NCBI GenBank assembly: GCA_903927615.1 | Contig: CAIYNU010000008.1 | Location: 1 to 64,000, forward strand | Direction: 5' to 3' | DNA: 64,000 nt | DNA from: an uncultured Rhodospirillales bacterium | Lineage (GTDB): Bacteria; Pseudomonadota; Alphaproteobacteria; Azospirillales; Azospirillaceae | Shown here: one piece after another, positions 5,018 to 21,307 of the stretch | How positions within the stretch are numbered: position 1 is the stretch's first letter | How the letters are laid out: every line of letters begins with the position of its first letter | Translations under genes and position numbers: made by a program | The notes under the pieces: model-generated | Seen by the model: only the letters and a program-made list of their open reading frames with translations | What the model was told of the DNA's origin: nothing | Databases searched by the model: none

Positions 5018-5743
5018 TTACGGCCGGGCAGACCGCGCCATCTGGTCAGTCAAGAGCCGCACCAATCCGCCGCGACGACGGCCAAGGTCTTCCAGCGCAG
5101 CCCTCCCGCCGGCCGCGAACACCGCCACCGCCGACAACAGGTCTTTAAGCTGTTGGGCACTGGTCCCATCGAAGCGGCACCAAGCCCCCCCGCTCAGCCG
5201 GGCCACCTGCTGAAAAGCGCGCTGTGCGGTGGGATCGTCACCCTCCTGGAACAAAAAGACCGGAACTCCCAACACCCCGAGTTGCCCGGCCAGATCGCCC
5301 AGCCGGTCAACATCCTCTTCCATGCTGTCGCCAACCGCCACCAGGGCGTTGACGCGCTGCTCACCCGTTTCGGTGATGGCGTGTCCCAGCACCCGGCACC
5401 ATTGGGTTTGCCCGGCCAGGCACGTCACCGCGGTCATCCGCCGCAACAATTCGGGCGCACAGGCCAGCCAGGGGGCAGACTTGCATTCACCGAAGCCGCG
5501 AAAGAACACCAGTTGGATGTCCAGCCCGCCCAGCGCCGCGGTGGCTTCGAACATTTTGCCCTGAAGCTGGCAGGCCCGATCCCAGGTTGGCTGACGACTG
5601 GCGGTGGCGTCCATGGCGAACATCAGCCGACCGCGCCGCGCCGCAGCGGCCGGCCGCGGCACCGTTTCGAGCCGACGAAGAAAAGCCGCAATCTGTTCGG
5701 GAGAGGATTTGTCCGCCGGAAGGTTGCCGCTGTTCGCCATCAC
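5018..5743 (-). CDS. VWA-domain protein
   Basis: The 241-residue protein has a von Willebrand factor A fold. The beta1 MIDAS motif appears as DATAS (DxTxS) at about residues 45-49, and the later strands ALVAVGDSMEEDVD and VPVFLFQEGDD supply the remaining metal-site acidic residues. No signal peptide or membrane helix is evident. Proteins of this size are found next to DnaJ-domain genes in alphaproteobacteria and probably act as metal-dependent protein-binding modules, but no specific role is established. It lies 49 nt downstream of the nicotinate phosphoribosyltransferase gene, in what looks like one minus-strand operon. Confidence 0.8.
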   Translation of the reverse strand: MMANSGNLPADKSSPEQIAAFLRRLETVPRPAAAARRGRLMFAMDATASRQPTWDRACQLQGKMFEATAALGGLDIQLVFFRGFGECKSAPWLACAPELLRRMTAVTCLAGQTQWCRVLGHAITETGEQRVNALVAVGDSMEEDVDRLGDLAGQLGVLGVPVFLFQEGDDPTAQRAFQQVARLSGGAWCRFDGTSAQQLKDLLSAVAVFAAGGRAALEDLGRRRGGLVRLLTDQMARSARP

Positions 5744-5792
5744 CGCCCCTCCCCGTCCCCACCCGCCGCCAATAACCGACCCCGCAAACCGG

Positions 5793-6944
5793 TCAGCGGC
5801 GACGGAACAGGAACTCCCGGCCCAGCTTGACCCGGTTCACTCCATTATACTCGATGATATCCGCCGTGGCATAGGTCTCGGTCCAGTTCTCGGGCAGAAA
5901 CGAGCCCGTCCCGATGATGTTAATGGGCGCGTTGGCATCGGCCATCACCCGGCACTTGGCGGGGCCGAAGCCACTGGAGGCGACGATCTTGACGTTGGGG
6001 AAACCGGCGCGATCCAACGCATCCCGAACGTGGAACACCGCTGCCGCCGATACCCCGGCGCCGATCAGATAGCGCAACTGGGTTTCGTCGCGGTAACCCC
6101 GCACGGCGTCGGGCGCATGACGCTCCAAAGCCGCATACGAGGCGGTGGGATCCAGGCCCTCGACAAAGCGACTGCCGGCGGTATCGATGCGCACGGCCAG
6201 ACGCCCAGCCTCGGCCATTTCGGGAAAACGTCGGGCCACCGCGATGCTGTCGGTAACTTCTTTGCCGAAATAATCCACCAGCACGGTCAAGGGCAGGTCG
6301 GGATAGGTCTCGTGAAACATCTCGGCGGCGCGCACCGTCGAACCGGCATAGCCGATCAGCGCGTGGGGCATGGTGCCCCGGCCCGCCGCCTCGCCGAAAT
6401 AGTGCGCGGTGGCATCGCTGGCGTTGCCGACAAATCCCACCGCCCCGACCTTGCGGCGCGCCCGTTCGGAACCCACCGAAGCGGCGTAGGCCATGAGTTC
6501 GGCCATTTCGATGCCGGCACAGTGGCGGGCATCCATGGCCAGAAAGGCCACGCTCGGCAAGTCCGAACACATGGTATAGGCGTTGTAGGCCGCGACGCAG
6601 GCCGGCCCCAATTTCATCAACAGGATCGTCTCCAATTCCACCAGATGGTAGAAGGAGCCGGTCAGGTATAGCATCGGTTCACCGGCGCCAACCCACTTGC
6701 CTTCGGGGTAGTGGACGGTGATCTGGACTTCAAAGCCACGCTGACGCGCCACCGACTCCAGCCAGGCCACCGCCAGACGCGGCGCCGACAGCACCGGGCG
6801 GCGCATAAACACCGCATAAGTCACCGAGCAATCACCAAAGCGTGCAACCGCCCCCTTGGTGCGCTTGAAATAGACGTCGGTCCACCCAGAGATGGCGTCC
6901 CCAGCCGGGCCATCGACTGCGGGAGAACTGGGTTTTGTCGTCAT
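5793..6944 (-). CDS. pncB: Nicotinate phosphoribosyltransferase (short type)
   Basis: This 383-residue protein belongs to the nicotinate/quinolinate phosphoribosyltransferase fold. It shows TDVYFKRT near the N-terminus, a conserved central barrel (FVGNASDATAHYF, VLVDYFGKE, AVRIDTAGS), and the C-terminal phosphate-binding segment NIIGTGSFLP. It would convert nicotinate and PRPP to nicotinate mononucleotide, salvaging NAD precursors. The length matches the shorter archaeal/alphaproteobacterial form rather than E. coli PncB. It is 46 nt downstream of the DAHP synthase gene. The other candidate, quinolinate phosphoribosyltransferase, is less likely given the TDVYFKRT start and overall length. Confidence 0.85.
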   Translation of the reverse strand: MTTKPSSPAVDGPAGDAISGWTDVYFKRTKGAVARFGDCSVTYAVFMRRPVLSAPRLAVAWLESVARQRGFEVQITVHYPEGKWVGAGEPMLYLTGSFYHLVELETILLMKLGPACVAAYNAYTMCSDLPSVAFLAMDARHCAGIEMAELMAYAASVGSERARRKVGAVGFVGNASDATAHYFGEAAGRGTMPHALIGYAGSTVRAAEMFHETYPDLPLTVLVDYFGKEVTDSIAVARRFPEMAEAGRLAVRIDTAGSRFVEGLDPTASYAALERHAPDAVRGYRDETQLRYLIGAGVSAAAVFHVRDALDRAGFPNVKIVASSGFGPAKCRVMADANAPINIIGTGSFLPENWTETYATADIIEYNGVNRVKLGREFLFRRR

Positions 6945-6990
6945 AACGCCCCTCCGCTTGGCATCGCTCCGGTCCGATCAAACCGGATCA

Positions 6991-8388
6991 TCAAAGCGCC
7001 GCCGCCGCCCGTCGGGCGTCCCGGCGCTTTTGCTTTTCGGCGCGCAGCTCCTCCGCCATCAAAAACGCCAGCTCCAACGACTGGTTGGCATTCAGGCGGG
7101 GATCGCAGGCGGTGTCGTAATCCTCGGACAACAGGTCGACGTCCGTAACGTTGTCGGCGCCGCCGGTACATTCGGTCACGTCACGCCCGGTCATCTCGAA
7201 ATGAACGCCGCCGGCATGCACGCCTTCATCCCGGCAGACCTTGAAGAAGCCCTGGAGTTCCCGGGCAATCGACTCGAAGGGCCGGGTTTTGACCCCCGAC
7301 GCGGCCTTGACCGTGTTGCCGTGCATGGGGTCGCTGAGCCAGACTACCGAACAACCGGCGGCCTTGACCGCACGAACCAACGGTGGCAGCTTTTCCAACA
7401 CCTTGTCGTGCCCCATGCGGATGATCAGGGTCAACCGGCCGGGCTCATTCCGAGGATTGAGCCGATCAATCAACCGCAGCAGGTCGTCGGCGGCAAGGCT
7501 GGGTCCGCACTTGAGCCCGATGGGGTTGGGAACCCCGCGCAGAAACTCCACATGGGCACCGTCGGCCTGACGGGTGCGGTCGCCGATCCACAACATATGA
7601 GCCGAGGTGGCCGTCCACGGTTCGCCCCCGGTGGTGCTGTCACGGCGGGTCAGCGCCTCCTCGTAGGGCAAAAGCAACGCCTCGTGGGAGGTGAAGAACT
7701 CGATTTCCCGAATCTGCGGCGTGGTCCTGCTGGTGATGCCGCAGGCCGCCATGAATTCCAGGGATTCCGTCAACCGGTCCGCCAGTTCCTGGAATCGCAG
7801 CGCGGGCGGTTGCTTGTGGACGAATTCCAGGGTCCACTCATGCACCCGGCTGAGGTCGGCGTACCCCCCCTGGGAGAACGCGCGCAACAGGTTCAGGGTT
7901 GCCGCCGACTGATAGTAGGCCTTGATCATGCGCTCGGGATCCGGCTCCCGCGCCGCTTCGGTGAAGTCCATGCCGTTGATCATGTCGCCGCGGTACGACG
8001 GCAGCCGAACGCCCTTCACCTCTTCAATGTCCGACGAGCGCGGCTTGGCGAACTGACCGGCCATACGGCCGATGCGAATCACCGGCACGCCGCAGCCGAA
8101 CGCCAGCACCGCCGCCATCTGGAGCAGCACCCGGAACGTGTCGCGGATATGGTTGGTTTCGAAGTCGGCGAAGCTTTCGGCGCAATCCCCGCCCTGAAGC
8201 ACAAACGCCTTACCATCGGCCGCCAGCGCCAACTGATCCTTAAGCCGCCGGATCTCGCCCGCGAACACCAGGGGAGGCAGTCGCCCCAAGCGGGCGGTGG
8301 TCTCGGCCAGCAGAGTCTGGTCCCGATATCCGGGAACCTGACAGATTGGCTTGGTCCGCCAACTCTCGCGACTCCATTCCTCAACCAT
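6991..8388 (-). CDS. Class II 3-deoxy-D-arabino-heptulosonate-7-phosphate synthase
   Basis: The enzyme condenses phosphoenolpyruvate with erythrose-4-phosphate, the first step of the shikimate pathway. The 465-residue length and sequence are those of the plant-like class II family: [20 protein letters not shown], a DPMHGNT metal/substrate motif and [14 protein letters not shown] near the C-terminus. The start ([21 protein letters not shown]) agrees with other class II enzymes. The metal-binding Cys (GGDC), His (DPMHGNT) and Glu residues are present. It is the first gene of a likely minus-strand operon with pncB, the VWA gene and the dnaJ-like gene. It faces the bufferin operon across a 333-nt divergent promoter region. 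Confidence 0.95.
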
Positions 8389-8721
8389 GACCCTTCTCTT
8401 TCCCTTGTCTGGCTAGGGCCAGCCCCGTCAACCCAACGCACCGAACCGGCTGACCGACCCACCGAAAAAGCTGGCTATAACCGGTTACGCCCCAGGATGC
8501 CAGACCGATCTCGCGCGCCCCGATGTCAAAGGGTGGGCGCCGGCGGATGGCAGTCAAGGCACCAGACCCATCCCACCCGGGGTAACGCCCGGTGCATGCT
8601 TTTTTTTGTCGGACCGAGTGTTGTTTTTAACGATTTTCACCAATCTTGTTCCCTGTGGAGAACCGCCGCCGGGGTTTCACAACAGCTCCGGCCAATTGAA
8701 ATCGCGCTTGGGAGATCGTTG
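8389..8721. promoter_or_regulatory. Divergent intergenic region between DAHP synthase and bufA
   Basis: This 333-nt stretch holds no gene and must contain promoters for both directions. A perfect palindrome TAACCGGTTA lies at 8478-8487. A GGGGTAACG element at about 8579-8587 is followed by a run of eight T residues at 8600-8607. Bufferin operons elsewhere can be driven by an ECF sigma factor using a GTAACC / CGAA-type promoter; GTAAC is present here but I do not see a convincing -10 at the right spacing. Promoter assignment is therefore open. Confidence 0.4.
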
Positions 8722-9015
8722 ATGTCCAATAAGAGTAAAACCACCTTTTCGGTTGCGGTCGCGCTTGCCGGTGCCGTCGCCTCGGTGTCGTTCGCCATTC
8801 CGGCCAGCGCCGACGACATCAAGCAGGTGAGGTGTTATGGCGTTGCCAAGGCCGGGGAAAACGGCTGCGCCAGTGCCGCCGCCAATCATAGCTGCGCCGG
8901 CGAGACCACCACCAATTACAATGGCGAGGACTGGAAGTTGGTTCCCGCCGGAACATGCACCACCATGGGCGGCAAAGATCAGCCGTTCAAGGGCACCGGC
9001 ATGATATCGCACTAA
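8722..9015 (+). CDS. bufA: Bufferin-type RiPP metallophore precursor (DUF2282, BufA)
   Basis: A 97-residue precursor starts at the ATG at 8722. Residues 1-30 form a Sec signal peptide ending in PASA. The mature part contains exactly four cysteines, C38, C49, C58 and C79, in the pattern RCYG, NGCAS, HSCAG and GTCTT that typifies DUF2282 proteins. In characterised bufferins the central cysteines are turned into thiooxazole heterocycles by the BufB/BufC pair, and the exported peptide chelates copper. All four genes expected for such an operon follow directly. The coding frame remains open upstream of 8722, but the signal peptide and operon context fix the start. The copper role is inferred from the family. 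Confidence 0.9.
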
Positions 9016-9038
9016 ACGGTTCCCAAAGCGCGGACGCC

Positions 9039-9929
9039 GTGAACCCTTGCTTCGGCTGCGACCCGATTCCCGTTCGAGCGGGAATCGGGTTGCGCACACC
9101 GCATGTGCCCGAAATGCTGGAAACCCGGCCGCCGGTGGGCTGGGTCGAGGTTCATGCCGAAAACTACCTGGCGGCCGGGGGTCCCCGCCTGGCCGCCCTG
9201 GAACGTATTCGCCGTGACCTGCCGCTCAGTATTCACGGCGTCGGCCTGTCGTTGGGCTCGGCCGAGGGCGTCGACGCCACCCACCTGGAGCGGTTGGCCC
9301 GCCTGGTGACCCGTTTCCAGCCGGCGCTGGTCTCGGAACATGTGGCATGGAGCGTCAACAGCGGCGTCTACTTCAATGATCTGTTACCGATCCCTTATAC
9401 CGAGGAGTCACTGGCCCTGTTGTGCCGCAACGTCGATCGGGTGCAAACCGTGTTGGGCCGGCAAATTCTGATGGAAAACCCGTCAACTTACGTCCGTTTC
9501 GTCGCATCGACCATTCCCGAACCGGAATTCATCGCCGAACTGGCGACGCGCACCGGTTGCGGCCTGCTTCTTGATGTCAACAATATTCAGGTCAGCGCGG
9601 TCAATCACGGCTTTGACCCCTACCGTTACCTGTCAACCATCCCGAAATCGGCCGTCCGGGAGATCCATCTGGCCGGTCACGCCGTATTGGACATGGACGG
9701 TGAAGTGTTGCTGGTTGACGACCATGGCTCGCCTGTGACCCAGGAGGTCTGGCAGCTTTACGCTGCCGCCATCCAAAGGGTTGGACCGACGCCGACGCTC
9801 ATCGAATGGGATACGCGGATACCGCCGCTCGCCACCCTGCTGGACGAAGCCCGACGCGCCGACAGGGTGTTGACGAAGGCCGCAGCACCGGTCCGGCCGG
9901 TGCCGGAGGAGAAGCGCGATGGTGCATGA
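9039..9929 (+). CDS. bufB: MNIO-family RiPP-modifying oxidase (DUF692, BufB)
   Basis: BufB-type multinuclear non-heme iron oxidases modify cysteines in precursor peptides. This 296-residue TIM-barrel protein has the family's metal-ligand motifs in order: [50 protein letters not shown] and [11 protein letters not shown] chose the GTG at 9039, 23 nt after the bufA stop; an in-frame ATG at 8955 would lie inside bufA, and the GIGLRTPH motif that normally opens the domain begins about 15 residues after the GTG. Its stop overlaps the start of the next gene by 11 nt, indicating translational coupling. The product acts in the cytoplasm before export of BufA. Confidence 0.9.
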
Positions 9930-10677
9930 CCTTCAGGTCGCCTTCGGACACGCCCTGTTGGCGGGCAACGCCGAACCGGTGGCGGATGCCCTGGTTTCAG
10001 ACCATATCCCGGCCGAAAAGCGATTGGGGGTCCACGTCAACAACGTCTTCGGTTTGCTGGGCACGGCGCTGGAAGTGGCTTTTCCGGTGGTGTGCCAGTT
10101 GGTCGGGACTCCTTTTTTCCGGATGGCCGCCCAGGCGTTCGTCACCCGCCATCCGCCATCGGTGCCGCATCTGGCGGTCTACGGCGGCCGCTTTTCCGAC
10201 TTTCTGGCGGACTTTCCGCCCGCGGCCGGAGTCCCATACCTGCCGTGCGTCGCCCGGTTGGAGTGGGCACGGATTGAGGCCTATTTCGCTGCCGACCGGG
10301 CCCCGCTGGATCCAGCCCGTCTGACCGAACTGCCGGCGGCAACGTATCCCGAGCTGGTGTTTCAACTGCACCCCTCGCTTCGGCTGGTCCGCTCCCCCTG
10401 GCCGATCTTCCTGCTCTGGCAGGCACACCAGCAGACGCCTGTCCCACCGGTCGATACCACGTCCGGGGGCGAAACCGTGCTGGTGTGGCGTCCTGATCTG
10501 GAGGTGATGCTGACCCGCATGAGCGCCGGCGACGCCGCACTCATCGCCGCCATCGCCCAAGGCGCGACACTGGCCGACGCTGCAACCGCCGCAGCCGCCG
10601 TGGAACCCGAGTTCGATCTTCAGGCGGCGCTGATCGGCCACCTGGAACGCGGCAGTTTTTGCGGGTGGGCGCAATAA
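9919..10677 (+). CDS. bufC: BufC-type RiPP recognition/partner protein (DUF2063)
   Basis: This 252-residue protein has the DUF2063 N-terminal domain: [41 protein letters not shown] and the [30 protein letters not shown] segment. The weaker C-terminal half contains a [10 protein letters not shown] strand. In bufferin and related MNIO systems DUF2063 proteins bind the precursor and partner with the DUF692 oxidase. Overlap with bufB by 11 nt supports stoichiometric, coupled synthesis. No signal peptide or membrane helix is present, fitting a cytosolic partner. It is followed after 65 nt by a DoxX gene. Confidence 0.88.
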
Positions 10678-10742
10678 TGGTTTTTTTTCGAAGCCCTCTT
10701 TCTTTGAAGCCATCATGACGACCACAGGAAGGATCCCCTCCC

Positions 10743-11213
10743 ATGTACGCCTTGCTGGTTCGGTTGGTCCCGATTGCCCGATGGGTCCTGACCGCTCTTG
10801 ACACCTGGGTCGCGCCGCTGGCCGACTTGGCAATCCGGGCGGCGCTGTTCCGGGTGTTCTTTTATGCCGGTTTGATCAAGGTCAGCGACTGGAACGGGAC
10901 ACTTCAACTCTTTCAAGTCGAATACGCCGTGCCTCTGCTGCCCTACGCCGCCGCCGCCGTGATGGCCACCACCGACGAGCTGATCTGTTCGGCCCTGGTC
11001 CTGGCGGGTTGCGGCGCCCGGCTGGCGGCGCTGCCGCTCCTGGTTCAGGCCATGGTCATTCAATTCTCGCTGGGGGCCATCAATACCAACTACGACAGCC
11101 TGGAGCATTTCCTGTGGATGGCGATGTTGCTGGTGGTGATCGCGCGCGGTCCCGGCCGGCTGTCCATTGATCATCTGGTTCGTCGTCGGGTGCTGGACAC
11201 CGGGATGAACTAG
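10743..11213 (+). CDS. DoxX-family membrane protein of the bufferin operon
   Basis: The 156-residue protein has four predicted transmembrane helices, with the DoxX signatures LAIRAALFRVFFYAGLIKVSDW and the second hydrophobic pair at LLPYAAAAVMA and ALPLLVQAMVIQFSLGA. DoxX proteins regularly form the last gene of BufA-BufB-BufC operons; their role (redox, quinone or export related) is not established. An AGGAAGGA ribosome site at about 10730-10737 supports the start. Its TAG stop codon (11211-11213) coincides with the first bases of a MITE-like palindromic element. The current C-terminus may therefore have been set by that insertion. Confidence 0.88.
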   Translation: MYALLVRLVPIARWVLTALDTWVAPLADLAIRAALFRVFFYAGLIKVSDWNGTLQLFQVEYAVPLLPYAAAAVMATTDELICSALVLAGCGARLAALPLLVQAMVIQFSLGAINTNYDSLEHFLWMAMLLVVIARGPGRLSIDHLVRRRVLDTGMN

Positions 11214-11323
11214 CGGCTTCCGAACAGGCAGCAAAGTCTGGACCGCGGCCGTCCCGGCCGCAAAGGGGCGGGCGAGACGCCCGCGTTCCCAACGGCGATT
11301 CCACGGGATCGGACGCCGCGCTA
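11211..11323 (+). mobile_element. MITE-like palindromic element, copy 1
   Basis: This element is about 113 bp. Its left end begins TAGCGGCTTCCGA and its right end finishes TCGGACGCCGCGCTA, a degenerate terminal inverted repeat. The core holds two perfect hairpins: GCGGCCG/CGGCCGC (11245-11261) and GCGGGCG/CGCCCGC (11268-11284). The same core, in the opposite orientation, lies at 55561-55675, where the terminal repeats are perfect. TA at both ends suggests a TA target duplication as used by IS630/mariner-type transposases, which are not in the window. It overlaps the stop codon of the DoxX gene. Confidence 0.75.
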
Positions 11324-11428
11324 GAGCCGGGATCCCCTGTGGCCGGGATGCCGGCGAGGCTTTATAGTCAAGGGCCCCGCCGTCGCGCTGCTGTTCGGCG
11401 TGACCTGAACCAGTGTGGCCATGTTCCC

Positions 11429-12793
11429 ATGCGTTTTCCTGCCCTAGCGGTCTATTGGGACCGCCGGATGCTGATTATCCTGTTGCTGGGCTTTTCCAGC
11501 GGCCTGCCCCTGGCGTTGGTGGGCGCGACCATGATGGCGCGCCTGCACGACGCCGGATTGAACAACACCGATATCGGACTGTTCGTGCTGGCCAGTATGC
11601 CCTACACGCTCAAGTTTCTGTGGGCGCCGCTGGTGGACCGGTTGCCGCTGCCGGGGCTGACCCGGCGATTCGGGCGACGGCGCGGCTGGGCGCTGTTGTG
11701 CCAGGCGGCGCTTCTGCTGGCGCTGCTGGGGTTGGCCGGCGTCGATCCGGTGCGGGAGCCCTGGACCACCGGCCTGATGGCGCTGCTGGTGGCGTTCTGC
11801 TCGGCGAGTCAGGATATTGTGGTCGATGCGTACCGGGTCGAGTCCCTGGACCGGCCTCAATTCGGCGCCGGAGCGGCAACCTATGTGTTGGGCTACCGGT
11901 TCGGCATGCTGGCGTCGGGTGCCGGCGGGCTCTATCTAGCCGCCATCCTGCCCTGGTCCGAGGTCTATGTCGTGATGGGCGGGTTGGCGCTGGTGGGCAT
12001 GGCGACGGTGCTGGGCGCCCCCGAGCCGGAGGGCGCGGCGGCTCTGGCCCGGGACACCGCCGATGCCGAAGCGTTGATGGTCCGGTCCGGCCTGGACGGC
12101 CGGCGCGCCCGGCTGGGGGCGTGGCTCTATGGCGCGGTGGTGGCACCGTTTCGCGATTTCACGCTGCGGCCGGCCTGGCAGGTGGTGCTGCTGTTTATCC
12201 TGCTGTTCAAACTGGGCGAGGTCTTCGCGGGGGTGATGGCCATCCCGTTTTATCTGGAGCTGGGGTTCACCAAAGTTGAAATCGCCAGCGTCACCAAGGT
12301 CTTCGGGCTGGTCGCGACCATCGCCGGCGGCCTGATCGGCGGCGTCTTGGTCGGGCGGTTCGGCATCGTCCGGGGATTGCTGGTCACCGGCGTGCTCCAG
12401 ATGGTCTCGAACCTCAGTTTCTCCGCTCTGGCGGTGATCGGCCACGATGTCGGTGCCCTGATGATCACGGTGACCATCGAGAATGTCTGCGGCGGCATGG
12501 CCACCGCGGCCTTCGTGGCCTACCTGTCGAGCCTGTGCTCGGTGGCCTACACCGCGACCCAATATGCGTTGCTGACCTCCCTGGCGGCATTCGCCCGGGA
12601 CGTGCTGGCGGCCTCCAGCGGCTGGTGTGCCGATCGCCTGGGCTGGATGGCCTACTATCTGTTTTCGACCGGGCTATGCTTGCCCGGACTGGTGCTGCTG
12701 GCCTGGTTGGCCGGGGTCGGTCCGCGGCTGTCCGGGGCTTTAACCCCGGACCTCCCCGAAGACCGCCGGCCCGTGGAAACCACAATCTCCTGA
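11429..12793 (+). CDS. ampG: AmpG-like muropeptide/MFS permease
   Basis: A 454-residue major facilitator protein with about 12 transmembrane segments. AmpG-family features include an N-terminal LLLGFSSGLPLALVGATM, the loop MPYTLKFLWAPLVDRLPLP, CSASQDIVVDAYRVE in helix 4, and GYRFGMLASGAGGLYLA. AmpG imports anhydromuropeptides from the periplasm for peptidoglycan recycling and feeds the signal that induces chromosomal beta-lactamases. The ATG at 11429 is chosen because the open frame upstream lacks membrane character and overlaps the MITE border region. It converges with the epimerase gene, 10 nt away, with no obvious terminator between them. The substrate is inferred from the family. Confidence 0.88.
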   Translation: MRFPALAVYWDRRMLIILLLGFSSGLPLALVGATMMARLHDAGLNNTDIGLFVLASMPYTLKFLWAPLVDRLPLPGLTRRFGRRRGWALLCQAALLLALLGLAGVDPVREPWTTGLMALLVAFCSASQDIVVDAYRVESLDRPQFGAGAATYVLGYRFGMLASGAGGLYLAAILPWSEVYVVMGGLALVGMATVLGAPEPEGAAALARDTADAEALMVRSGLDGRRARLGAWLYGAVVAPFRDFTLRPAWQVVLLFILLFKLGEVFAGVMAIPFYLELGFTKVEIASVTKVFGLVATIAGGLIGGVLVGRFGIVRGLLVTGVLQMVSNLSFSALAVIGHDVGALMITVTIENVCGGMATAAFVAYLSSLCSVAYTATQYALLTSLAAFARDVLAASSGWCADRLGWMAYYLFSTGLCLPGLVLLAWLAGVGPRLSGALTPDLPEDRRPVETTIS

Positions 12794-12803
12794 AGGTCGC
12801 ACC

Positions 12804-13733
12804 CTAAAGAAGATATTTTAAGGTCCGCTGCAACCCGTCCCGAAGGCTGGTATCGCAGGCGAACCCGTATTCCCGCATCAGCCGGCGCGGATCCCCCACC
12901 GAGACTCGGATGTCGCCGTCGGGGGCCGCCTCGCTGGTCTCGATGATCGGTGTCCGGCCCAACAACTCGCCCAACAGCCGCGCCAGTTGGTTGACCGAGG
13001 TCGCCTGGCCGGTGCAGACATTGAAGATCGGGGCTCCGGCCACCGGCCGGACCATGGCTTCCATCAGGTACTGGATCACGTCGCCGACATGGACGAAATC
13101 CCGTTCCAAGTCGCCGTCGCCGAAAATGGTGATGGGTTTACCCCGGGCGATACGGCTGGCGAACAGCGAAATCACCCCTGAATAGGGCGAAGACGGGTGC
13201 TGACCCGGGCCATAGATGTTGAACAGCCGAAAGCCGGTCACCGGCACCCCGTGAACCCGGTCTGCGATGCGCGCGTACTGCTCACAGGCTAATTTATCGA
13301 CGCAGTAGGCGGTGAGCGGTTGAACCGCGGCATCCTCGGCCAGCGGCACCGCCGGGTTATCGCCATAAACCGCCGCGGACGAGGCATAGACCACGGGAAT
13401 CGGCCGCCCGTCGGCAGCCACCCGGGCGGCGTCGAACACGGCCACGGTGCCACCGACATTGACCCGATGGGTGTGGGCCCACTCCTCGCGCGACCGCTCC
13501 GCCGAGGCGATGGCCGCCAGATGGAAACACCCCTCCTGCCCGGCCATGGCCTCCGCCACCGTCGCGGGGTCGGCGACATCGCCATAGATCAGGGCCGCCG
13601 CCGCCGGAATCCGGTCGGCCTGGCCCGACGACAGGTCGTCCAGCACCGTCACCTCGTGGCCCGTCTCCAGCAGATGCTCCACCAAATGCGCGCCGATGAA
13701 ACCACATCCGCCAGTGACCAGATATCGGCCCAT
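12804..13733 (-). CDS. NAD-dependent nucleotide-sugar epimerase/dehydratase (extended SDR)
   Basis: The 309-residue protein has the Rossmann motif VTGGCGFIGAH (residues 6-16), an acidic residue at the end of beta2 (LDDLSSG), and the catalytic triad of extended SDRs: Ser near 118, Y143 and K147 in TAYCVDK. C-terminal motifs GFRLFNIYGPGQ and RDFVHVGDV are shared with UDP-glucose 4-epimerase and related enzymes. It should act on a nucleotide-activated sugar for envelope polysaccharide. The exact substrate cannot be told from sequence: UDP-glucose/GalNAc 4-epimerase and GDP-sugar epimerase are both possible. No other sugar genes adjoin it. Confidence 0.87.
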   Translation of the reverse strand: MGRYLVTGGCGFIGAHLVEHLLETGHEVTVLDDLSSGQADRIPAAAALIYGDVADPATVAEAMAGQEGCFHLAAIASAERSREEWAHTHRVNVGGTVAVFDAARVAADGRPIPVVYASSAAVYGDNPAVPLAEDAAVQPLTAYCVDKLACEQYARIADRVHGVPVTGFRLFNIYGPGQHPSSPYSGVISLFASRIARGKPITIFGDGDLERDFVHVGDVIQYLMEAMVRPVAGAPIFNVCTGQATSVNQLARLLGELLGRTPIIETSEAAPDGDIRVSVGDPRRLMREYGFACDTSLRDGLQRTLKYLL

Positions 13734-14103
13734 GTTCCGTCCCTCGTTGCCTCACGCCTCACTCCCGCCGATACCACCCGACTTTCGCCCGCGTGTAAAG
13801 GGTCGAGAGGCGGTCGGCGTGGTGTTGGGGACAAACCGGGCGGTCCTGAAAACAACCCTGTGAGGTCCGTTACTCCGACGCCAAGCCACATCGGCTTTCA
13901 CAATCATAGCATGTCATACGTCCCAAAATTCGGGATCGGTCCCGCCCCCCGTTCACCCATCGACGGATGTCGTCCCGCCCGATCAACCCGCGCCGTGACG
14001 GAGTCGGCCCCCGGCATGACTTCGGTTTTTGACGCCGCGCCCGGTTCCTGCCATGGTGCGCGCCAACCCGCTTTCTTCGTCATCAGCCAAGGCTCTGCCC
14101 GTC
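13734..14103. other. Intergenic region upstream of cobT
   Basis: This 370-nt divergent region lies between the epimerase and cobT. I looked for a cobalamin riboswitch, which often precedes cob genes, and saw no recognisable B12-box or conserved core. No tRNA-like or coding element is evident. It presumably holds two ordinary promoters. Confidence 0.4.
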
Positions 14104-15132
14104 ATGTCCGAGCACCATCCCCTTCCCAGTTTCGCCGAGATTCACACCCTGCTGGCCGCACTGCCCGGTCCCGACCAGGAGGCCGCCGCCGCCGCCCGTG
14201 CCCACCAGGACCGCCTGACCAAGCCCCAGGGATCATTGGGCCGGCTTGAAGAGCTGGCGACCTGGATGGCCACCTGGCAGGGGCGGCACCCGCCCCAGTT
14301 GCGGCGGTCCCGGGTGGCGGTGTTTGCCGGCAATCATGGTGTGACGGCGCAAGGCGTTTCGGCATTTCCGGCCGCCGTCACCAAGCAGATGGTGGCCAAC
14401 TTTCAGAACGGCGGCGCCGCGGTCAACCAGATTTGCGGTGTGGTGGACGCCGAATTGCGGGTCTACGAACTGGACCTGGACCATCCCACCCAGGATTTCA
14501 CCACCGGTCCGGCCATGGCCGAGGACGAATGCTGCCGCGCCATGGCCTATGGCATGATGGCGGTGGACGCCAACCTCCACCTGTTGTGCCTGGGCGAAAT
14601 GGGGATCGGCAACACCACCGCGGGTTCCGCCTTGTGCCGGGCGCTGTTCGGCGGCGAGACCGCCGATTGGGTCGGCCGGGGCACCGGCGTTGACCAGGCC
14701 GGCCTCGAGCGCAAGATTGCCGCGGTGGACGCCGGACTGGCCGCCAACCCCGAAGCCGTCAACGATCCGCTGGAGGCCTTGCGCCGACTCGGCGGCCTGG
14801 AACTGGCGGCGATCGTCGGCGCGGTGCTGGCGGCGCGGCTGGCACGGACGCCGGTGGTGCTCGATGGCTTCACCTGCACCGCCGCCGCGGCGGTCTTATA
14901 CAAGGTGAATCCCAGCCTGCTCGATCATTGCGTGGTCGGCCATTGTTCGGTGGAACCCGGTCACGCCCGGTTGCTGGAGCGCATCGGTCAAAAGCCCCTG
15001 GTGGATTTCGGCCTGCGCCTCGGCGAAGGCTCGGGGGCCGCGCTGGCGATTCCGATCCTGCGCTCGGCGGTGGCCTGTCTGTCCGGCATGGCGACCTTCG
15101 AAGATGCCGGCGTCAGCAACCGCGACCATTGA
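14104..15132 (+). CDS. cobT: Nicotinate-nucleotide:dimethylbenzimidazole phosphoribosyltransferase
   Basis: CobT transfers phosphoribose from nicotinate mononucleotide to 5,6-dimethylbenzimidazole, producing the lower ligand precursor of cobalamin. The 342-residue product matches the family length. It has [15 protein letters not shown] near the N-terminus, [19 protein letters not shown], and the C-terminal [10 protein letters not shown] segment that carries the catalytic glutamate. The start at 14104 gives the normal N-terminus ([13 protein letters not shown]); an open frame extends upstream without family similarity. No other cobalamin gene is adjacent; tpiA follows after 46 nt on the same strand. 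The presence of a B12-binding radical SAM gene in the window fits a B12-using cell. Confidence 0.95.
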
Positions 15133-16661: not shown

Positions 16662-18314
<1,653 letters not shown>

Positions 18315-18359
18315 GGCCGATTGGCGGAGACTTCCGGCGTCGCTTTTTCGGGAGTGACC

Positions 18360-19199
18360 ATGTCCCACGCGCGCACCGTCCCCATCGGTTCTGTGGCGTT
18401 CGCCAATAACCGGCCATTGGCCCTGATCGCCGGTCCCTGCGTGCTGGAAAGCCGTCAGCATGCCCTGGAAATCAGTCAGGCGTTGGTGGAAATCACCGGC
18501 CGGCTCGGCCTCGGACTGGTTTACAAGTCGTCCTTCGACAAGGCCAACCGGACCTCCATCGGCAGCGTCCGCGGCGTCGGGATGGCGCAAGGCTTGGAGA
18601 TTCTGGCCGAGGTGCGCGCGGTCCGCGGCTGCCCGGTCCTGACCGATGTCCACGAACCGGACCAGTGCGCCGCGGCGGCCGAGGCGGTGGACGTGCTCCA
18701 GATTCCGGCGTTTCTGTGCCGCCAGACCGACCTGCTGGTGGCGGCCGCCCGGACCGGCAAGCCGGTCAACGTCAAGAAGGGGCAGTTCCTGGCACCCTGG
18801 GACATGAAAAACGTCGCCGCCAAGCTCAGCGCCGCCGGCAACGATAATATCCTGTTGTGCGAGCGCGGCGTCAGCTTCGGTTACAACACCCTGGTTTCGG
18901 ACCTGCGGGCGCTGCCGATTCTCGCGGCTACCGGTTATCCGGTGGTGTTCGACGCCACCCATTCCGTCCAGCAACCGGGCGGTCTCGGGGGCAGTTCGGG
19001 TGGCCAGCGGGAATTCGTGCCGGTACTGGCTCGAGCCGCGGTGGCGGTGGGCGTCGCCGGCCTGTTTCTGGAAACCCACCAGGACCCCGACCGGGCCCCC
19101 AGCGACGGCCCGAACATGATCGCCCTGAAAGACCTGCCGACGCTGCTGGAAACGCTGCTGGCCTTTGATCGGCTGGCCAAGGCCCTGCCCCTGGCCTAA
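18360..19199 (+). CDS. kdsA: 3-deoxy-8-phosphooctulonate (KDO-8-P) synthase
   Basis: KdsA condenses arabinose-5-phosphate with phosphoenolpyruvate to give KDO-8-phosphate for lipopolysaccharide inner core. The 279-residue product shows [54 protein letters not shown] and [14 protein letters not shown] use the ATG at 18360 with GGAG 7 nt upstream; a TTG further up would add 13 residues not seen in the family. The presence of kdsA indicates a Gram-negative outer membrane. It converges with rpoD. Confidence 0.96.
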
Positions 19200-19205
19200 C
19201 CGGAA

Positions 19206-19243
19206 CCGGATGGGCGACGCGCCGAAGACGCCCGCCCATCCGG
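19206..19243. terminator. Bidirectional terminator between kdsA and rpoD
   Basis: A perfect 11-bp inverted repeat, CCGGATGGGCG (19206-19216) and CGCCCATCCGG (19233-19243), fills the 50-nt gap between two convergent genes. No long T-run follows on either strand. The location favours a role in ending both transcripts. Confidence 0.6.
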
Positions 19244-19249
19244 CGCCGA

Positions 19250-21307
19250 TCACGTATCGAGAAAGCTGCGCAGCTTGCGGCTACGGCTCGGATGCTTGAG
19301 CTTGCGCAGCGCCTTGGCTTCAATCTGCCGAATCCGCTCCCGGGTGACCGAAAATTGCTGGCCCACTTCTTCCAGGGTGTGGTCGGTGTTCATGCCGATG
19401 CCAAAGCGCATGCGCAGAACCCGCTCCTCACGGGGCGTCAGGCTGGCCAAGACCCGGGTGGTGGTCTCGCGCAGATTGGCCTGGATCGCGGCATCCAGTG
19501 GCAGCACCGCGTTCTTGTCCTCGATAAAGTCGCCGAGATGGCTGTCTTCCTCGTCGCCGATCGGCGTCTCCAGGCTGATCGGTTCCTTGGCGATTTTCAG
19601 CACCTTGCGGACCTTTTCCAGCGGCATCAGCAACCGCTCGGCCAGCTCCTCGGGGGTGGGCTCGCGGCCGATCTCGTGCAACATCTGCCGGCTGGTGCGG
19701 ACCAATTTGTTGATGGTTTCGATCATGTGGACCGGGATGCGGATGGTCCGGGCCTGATCGGCAATCGAGCGGGTGATCGCCTGACGAATCCACCACGTCG
19801 CATAAGTCGAGAATTTATAGCCGCGCCGGTACTCGAACTTGTCAACCGCCTTCATTAGACCGATGTTGCCCTCCTGAATTAAGTCCAGGAATTGCAAGCC
19901 GCGGTTCGTATACTTTTTGGCAATAGAAATCACCAGCCGCAGATTGGCCTCGACCATTTCCTTCTTGGCGCGACTGGCTTCCTTCTCGCCCTTCTGGACG
20001 GTCGAGACGATACGCCTGAACTCACCGATCGGAAGTTGCACCTCTTCAGCGATATTGACAATGCCCTCGCGCAACCGGGCCGCCTCTTCGCCATGCTTGT
20101 CGAACATCCGCTGCCAGCCCTTGGCCGGCAGTTGGCGCACCCGCTCCAACCAATTGGGGTCCAGTTCGTACCCATAATAATGGGTTAAAAAATCTTCGCG
20201 CTTGATCTTACAGTCGGTGGCCAGGCGCAACAACTTACCTTCGCAACTGGTCAGCCGTCGATTAAGACTATAAAGCTGCTCGACAAGCTGCTCGATCCGG
20301 CCATTATTCAGGCGCACCTGATTGACCAGCTCGATCATTTCGTTCTTAAGTCGCTCGTATTTCTTGTCCGATTGCCGACTGGTGTCCTCGCCCTTCTGAA
20401 TGGCCGACAAACGACTTTGATGGAGCTTATGCAGCTTTTCGTAAGTGGCCGCGATGGCGGTGAACGTCTCCAGCACCTGGGGCTTGAGCGCCGCTTCCAT
20501 GGCCGAAAGCGACAGACTGTTTTCGTCGCTATCGGGATCGGCCTCGCCTTCCAGGTCCATCTCGGGCTCGGGCGGTTCCGGAACCGCGGCCTCCACTTCG
20601 GCCTCGCCTTCGGCTTCGCTCTCGGCTTCGGCGCCCCCGTCCGCCGGCCCTTCGCCACCGGCCACAACCGGCGGCGCGACCGCGACATTACTCTCCAGGG
20701 GCGGTTCCCCGGCGCCGACCGGGGCTTCGACCTGTCCGAAGGGGCTGGTGCCATAGGTCGCGTCAAGGTCGATGATGTCGCGCAACAACATCTGCCCTTC
20801 GCCCAAGGCATCATGCCAGCCGATAATGGCGCGGATGGTCAGGGGCGATTCGCAAATCGCCCCGATCATCATTTCCCGCCCGGCTTCAATGCGCTTGGCG
20901 ATGGCGATTTCGCCTTCGCGCGACAACAGCTCCACCGAGCCCATCTCGCGCAGATACATCCGCACCGGATCGTCGGTACGCCCGATATCGTCGTCGTCCA
21001 GATTCCCTGACGTCCGGCCTTCGCCTTCCACCGGCGGTTCGGGGGCCGCGTCCTCTCCGCTCTCTTCGCTCTCGATGACGTTGATACCCATCTCCGACAG
21101 CATGGCCATGGTGTCCTCGATTTGCTCCGAGGACGACTGGTCTTGCGGCAGAGCCGAATTCAACTCGTCATAGGTGACGTAACCGCGCTCTTTACCGCGC
21201 GCGATCATTTTTTTGACCGCCTGGACCAACCCGTCCATCAGCGGCCCCTCGCCACCCTCTTCACGAGTCTCAGGAACTTCTGCTCTATTCGTCGCTTTCG
21301 TGGCCAT
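19250..21307 (-). CDS. rpoD: RNA polymerase primary sigma factor (sigma-70)
   Basis: The 685-residue length and all conserved regions identify the housekeeping sigma factor. An N-terminal region 1.1 ([24 protein letters not shown]) is followed by region 1.2 ([22 protein letters not shown]). A long acidic Ala/Glu/Pro-rich non-conserved insertion spans about residues 190-270. Regions 2.3-2.4 read [15 protein letters not shown] and [16 protein letters not shown]; region 4.2 is [20 protein letters not shown]. It lies downstream of dnaG on the same strand, the usual dnaG-rpoD arrangement, with 387 nt between them that may hold additional promoters. Confidence 0.98.

Follow-up and report, generated by a model that had tools for sequence, protein, structure and literature searches.

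From our analysis of the first 64,000 nucleotides of contig CAIYNU010000008.1 from an uncultured Rhodospirillales bacterium (assembly GCA_903927615.1; this whole stretch is called the window here), four consecutive genes, bufA, bufB, bufC, and doxX, almost certainly form a complete and typical Buf1-type bufferin operon, an ordinary example of a known system [Table 1]. Bufferins of the Buf1 and Buf2 types are reported in thousands, Buf1 being the type with four cysteines, and their core cluster consists of genes for a precursor, an MNIO enzyme, a DUF2063 protein, and a DoxX protein (PMC12452194). All four reading frames of the operon are intact. All four products exceeded their Pfam cut-offs, which rules out a chance run of open frames, and BufB also exceeded the NCBIfam cut-off for the bufferin maturase. 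The initial annotation had described a complete bufferin-type operon with the genes in this order and with bufB and bufC overlapping by 11 nt. That description is right: the order and coordinates follow from the reading frames, and the overlap lies at 9919-9929. The profile search it had proposed as a check, for DUF2282, DUF692, and DUF2063, was run with Pfam and NCBIfam and bore it out.

Table 1. Features of the bufferin locus (coordinates within the window)
Feature	Coordinates	Strand	Product or description
Conserved upstream element	8616..8646	+	Putative promoter or operator of the operon
bufA	8722..9015	+	97 aa; Buf1 (DUF2282) precursor; Pfam PF10048
bufB	9039..9929	+	296 aa; GTG start; MNIO bufferin maturase; Pfam PF05114, NCBIfam MNIO_BufB, PDB 3bww
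bufC	9919..10677	+	252 aa; MNIO partner protein (PME type 1); DUF2063 and putative C-terminal RRE-like domain
doxX	10743..11213	+	156 aa; DoxX-family membrane protein; Pfam PF07681

Precursor, maturase, and partner proteins

The BufA precursor matched DUF2282 with an E-value of 3.2e-20 and 72.3 bits against a cut-off of 22.4, and its four cysteines are located at residues 38, 49, 58, and 79 of the 97-residue translation, exactly as the initial annotation had placed them. We found each of these cysteines in 22/22 aligned precursors, the window row included, with a fifth cysteine in two rows; the rows were collected with the window BufA at E-values up to 0.001 and cut to start about 40 residues before the first cysteine motif. 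The initial annotation had pointed out the wide spacing of the cysteines in this precursor. The positions are correct, but the implied unusual spacing is rejected, as all 22 rows have the same four positions and this spacing is the norm for Buf1/DUF2282 precursors. Judged by eye, the N-terminus has a positive start, a hydrophobic stretch, and A-S-A before D31, and resembles a Sec signal peptide of about residues 1-30. Two other precursor types were considered and rejected, namely the Buf2 type, since BufA has four cysteines and not six (or twelve) and reached the NCBIfam BufA2 model with only 27.2 bits against a cut-off of 60, and the HvfA/oxazolin type with its EGKCG motif, since KCG is absent from the BufA sequence and the Hvf models scored below their cut-offs.

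The identity of BufB is given by its matches to Pfam PF05114 (MbnB_TglH_ChrH; E-value 1.3e-107, above the cut-off) and to NCBIfam MNIO_BufB (389.9 bits, cut-off 310), compared with 226 bits for the HvfB-type model, which is below the cut-off of 360. Its GTG start is our choice inside a longer open frame (8955-9929). Relatives of BufB with solved structures include 3bww (E-value 9.6e-36), MbnB, and, from the TglHI structures 8hci and 8hi7, the DUF692 chain. Six histidines together with N181, N182, D227, and H229 are invariant in an alignment of 22 rows, and some of these invariant residues appear to be the equivalents, as mapped through 3bww, of N175, D242, and H244, which are described as the third-iron residues of HvfB (PMC13419390).

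BufC matched Pfam PF09836 (DUF2063) with an E-value of 2.2e-18 and 66.7 bits (cut-off 27.2) and stayed below the cut-off of the HvfC model (42 bits versus 142). A phmmer search of BufC against solved structures gave nothing significant (three matches, E-value 0.6 or worse), so the comparison was made at the level of the fold. The predicted model, built with 18 aligned sequences, has a mean predicted local distance difference test score (pLDDT) of 91.0 and gave three fold matches at E-values up to 0.001, that is, 8hi7_A (2.6e-05), 8hci_A (4.6e-05), and 3dee/NGO1945 (1.7e-04). The TM-score against 3dee is 0.70 on the target with a root-mean-square deviation (rmsd) of 4.8, and the rmsd against chain A of TglHI is large (7.7-7.9). 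In 8hci, chain D is the DUF692 protein, which makes TglI the likely identity of chain A in 8hi7 and 8hci. MNIO partner proteins are reported to include TglI and NGO1945, and 3dee is reported to have both a DUF2063 and an RRE-type domain (PMC12452194). BufC is predicted to carry both domains, the RRE-type domain being proposed from the fold matches of the model to 3dee and TglHI chain A at a large rmsd. The doxX product matched Pfam PF07681 with an E-value of 2.7e-11 and 44.4 bits (cut-off 23.6), and reached 47.9 bits with the HvfX model, below its cut-off of 80.

Conservation of the operon and a second Buf1 lineage in the genome

A relative of BufB was found in 22 of the 39 genomes of relatives, own genome included. 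We fetched 21 related operons from the 27 BufB matches outside the window, leaving out the second copies in G017 and G022, the weak matches G005:C13 and G014:C3, and those in G032 and G033. All 21 have bufA, bufB, and bufC together, and 18 have a doxX match, with none at an E-value of 0.001 in L028, the second L040 operon, and L043. A further set of 35 loci was found with BufB in named genomes, and 14 of these have an adjacent precursor matching the 22-row BufA profile (three of the 14, L045, L046, and L079, appear to be contigs of the first set). L049 was not assessable for a precursor, as the contig starts immediately ahead of bufB, and the other 20 loci gave no precursor match, their BufB being mostly more distant (32-48% identity). 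On the contig of L053, a complete bufferin operon is followed by a second, divergent bufA-bufB-bufC set at 5124-7170, whose precursor matches the BufA profile weakly (0.0003). Within the alphaproteobacterial family, 46/82 genomes searched have a DUF2282 match. A tblastn search of BufA against plasmids gave matches in 190 of 72,556 records, with coverage of the query at 80% or more in four. A literature search on bufferins in Azospirillaceae turned up no paper that seemed relevant, judging by titles and abstract openings.

The surroundings of the operon are conserved as well. The window operon is flanked by genes for a class-II DAHP synthase and AmpG, and so are the operons of G002 and G004, with about 3.3 kb between the DAHP synthase gene and bufA in G004; in G013 and G011, which belong to other genera, no more than about 350 bp lie between bufA and a DAHP synthase gene. 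These neighbors shared among relatives point to vertical inheritance of the window operon.

The genome itself (4.57 Mb in 104 contigs, 98.38% complete) contains two DUF2282 and two MNIO matches at an E-value of 0.001, one of each in the window and on contig C92. The two BufA precursors are 45.8% identical (44/96 columns) and the two BufB proteins 58%. In a BufB tree of 55 rows, from which L045, L046, and L079 were removed as apparent duplicates of L026, L029, and L027, the window copy shares a clade with two members of its genus, G002 and G004 (100/99). The C92 copy falls with another member of the genus, G003 (100/99), and with G020, from a different genus (100/98); deeper forks are weaker. 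The sequences indicate that the C92 operon is a second Buf1 operon of another, divergent lineage and that the two copies did not arise by recent duplication. The window type is present in 3/5 genomes of the genus, the C92 type in 2/5, and neither in 1/5, own genome holding both. Genomes with several bufferin clusters are already on record, the largest number of Buf1 genes in a single genome being five (PMC12452194).

About 3 kb past the second operon, at 9604-11760 of its contig stretch (L025), we noticed a frame that joins an N-terminal DoxX domain to a pyridine nucleotide oxidoreductase of the NDH-2 type (Pfam DoxX, Pyr_redox_2, and NDH2_C). This fusion is a hint at a possible redox function of DoxX proteins encoded close to bufferin genes.

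Upstream block, regulation, and surrounding genes

Between the DAHP synthase gene and bufA, we found 21 nt, GAGTGTTGTTTTTAACGATTT, shared without a mismatch by the three members of the genus that have a window-type operon. In 500 mononucleotide shuffles, for which the G004 stretch was the whole gap of 3261 nt, the longest three-way match was 9 nt versus the real 21 nt. Measured from GTGTTG, the distance of the block to the bufA start is 104, 117, and 107 nt in the three members. A 27-nt version is present in 3/5 genus genomes and has one match in own genome at up to three mismatches (reversed control, zero); in the C92 stretch of 12 kb, no match was found with up to seven mismatches allowed. 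At the same tolerance, a search of the window and L025-L079 (L001-L024 not included) returned the window, L026, L027, L045, and L079, of which L045 and L079 are apparently duplicates of the contigs L026 and L027. Since the block was found beyond the window in these contigs alone, it defines no regulon. We infer that it is a promoter or operator of the operon, bearing in mind that three related species are few.

Scans of 8389-11430 for sigma-70 promoters and terminators gave no promoter-like site (shuffle mean 0.5) and one terminator-like site versus a shuffle mean of 2.9. A SigF-like promoter motif of the Caulobacter type had no match on the one strand scanned of five upstream regions. A gene for NrsF (PF06532) was not found in own genome, with Caulobacter vibrioides as a positive control and a SigF-like sigma factor not searched for. 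Because NrsF was not found, the regulation of these bufferins may differ from that in Caulobacter, and a conserved candidate control element in such a genome could indicate another mode of bufferin induction. Conceivably, the two old and divergent Buf1 lineages serve different metals or conditions, and the window operon is switched through the 21-bp element by a regulator new to bufferins instead of SigF/NrsF; as a whole, we regard this proposal as rather unlikely.

The neighbors recognized among the window proteins scanned (5796-15129) are the DAHP synthase, AmpG, an epimerase, a DBI phosphoribosyltransferase, and a weak QRPTase_N match. Elsewhere in the window, a TPR-repeat protein with a Glyco_transf_41 domain is encoded on the minus strand at 147-2042, which we take to be of the O-GlcNAc transferase type. 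Also on the minus strand, an open frame of 555 codons at 17589-19253 is a candidate gene with no Pfam match, and it is adjoined by a sigma-70 gene with all regions (19253-21307, minus strand). Scans of the window with Rfam (gathering threshold) and for tRNA genes gave no hit in either case.

Proposed function and comparison with known systems

The gene families, the modeled fold of BufC, the conserved cysteines, and the conserved locus come from the present analysis; for chemistry, export, metal, and benefit, we draw on characterized relatives, by analogy with which the operon most likely works as described for bufferin 1 of Caulobacter. BufA would be made by the ribosome, and BufC would present it to BufB, an iron enzyme, probably by means of the signal-peptide end of BufA; a signal peptide is reported to act like a leader (PMC13419390). 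BufB would then oxidize the central cysteines C49 and C58 to 5-thiooxazoles, Sec would export the product, and the outer cysteines C38 and C79 would form a disulfide. The mature peptide of about 67 residues would bind excess copper in the periplasm, with DoxX as a membrane accessory that may take part in copper binding (PMC13097082).

For Buf1 bufferins, the conversion of the central cysteines to thiooxazoles and an outer disulfide are reported (PMC12452194), and 5-thiooxazoles are assigned in Caulobacter bufferin 1 (PMC13097082). The initial annotation had called the final modification and the metal open, which is true solely for this lineage and not for the family. A loss of 4 Da per modified cysteine is reported for fontiphorin (PMC13097082); as the thiooxazoles are assigned to the two central cysteines, this loss would be expected on two cysteines and not on four. 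Sequestration of copper in the periplasm is the function reported for bufferins (PMC12452194). In Caulobacter, the DUF2282, DUF692, hypothetical, and DoxX genes are copper-induced under SigF, and a sigF mutant is copper-sensitive (PMC8224329).

Several observations weigh against assigning the window operon to this copper-buffering system. In the NCBIfam scan, none of the window proteins scanned matched a BufA1 model, and the BufA2, HvfC, and HvfX models were reached only below their cut-offs. Metal-resistance genes were not among the neighbors in the proteins scanned, and the NrsF result given above belongs here too. In Cupriavidus metallidurans, the homologous operon reportedly does not influence copper resistance, although other systems may mask an effect (PMC8224329), and the copper response of the Legionella promoter was weaker at 26 C than it was at 37 C (PMC5413113).

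The Cupriavidus result would also suit an operon with the same pathway and chemistry whose peptide serves mainly against some soft metal other than copper, or against another stress (gold, silver, cadmium, or oxidative stress). The related Gig operons respond to gold besides copper (PMC5413113), the SigF regulon of Caulobacter responds also to chromate and cadmium (PMC8224329), and two divergent Buf1 operons in one genome would allow a division of labor. We consider this improbable, for copper is the metal reported for the characterized bufferins (PMC12452194) and the mature BufA sequence nowhere departs from the Buf1 pattern. That the window operon is a decayed or silent copy beside a working C92 operon would fit the presence of two operons and the one genus genome in five that lacks a DUF2282 match, from which the system seems dispensable, but it is barely credible given the intact frames, the invariant BufB residues kept in the window copy, and the operon, neighbors, and upstream block conserved in two other species.

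In essence, the window operon is a clean further example of a widespread copper-handling peptide system, and its local interest is in the upstream element and the two parallel Buf1 lineages of one genome. Among known systems, TglHI of pearlin maturation shares the MNIO enzyme and the partner fold, the BufC model matching chain A of TglHI, but it acts on a C-terminal cysteine added to a scaffold peptide and is described as working without a Sec-type precursor (PMC12452194). The HvfABC-HvfX, oxazolin, and fontiphorin systems share an MNIO enzyme, a DUF2063-type partner, and a cysteine-bearing precursor with a Sec signal, which in BufA is a putative one; their precursors have EGKCG, and BufB, BufC, and DoxX of the window fall below the Hvf cut-offs. 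The gig operon of Cupriavidus metallidurans, with its Legionella homologue, has the same gene set (DoxX, DUF2063, DUF692, and DUF2282) and was characterized through its response to gold and copper (PMC5413113), whereas the window operon is known from its genes. The Buf1 operon of Caulobacter vibrioides likewise has DUF2282, DUF692 (MNIO), DoxX, and a gene in the partner position, annotated there as hypothetical; in place of a detected NrsF, the window genome has the conserved upstream block.
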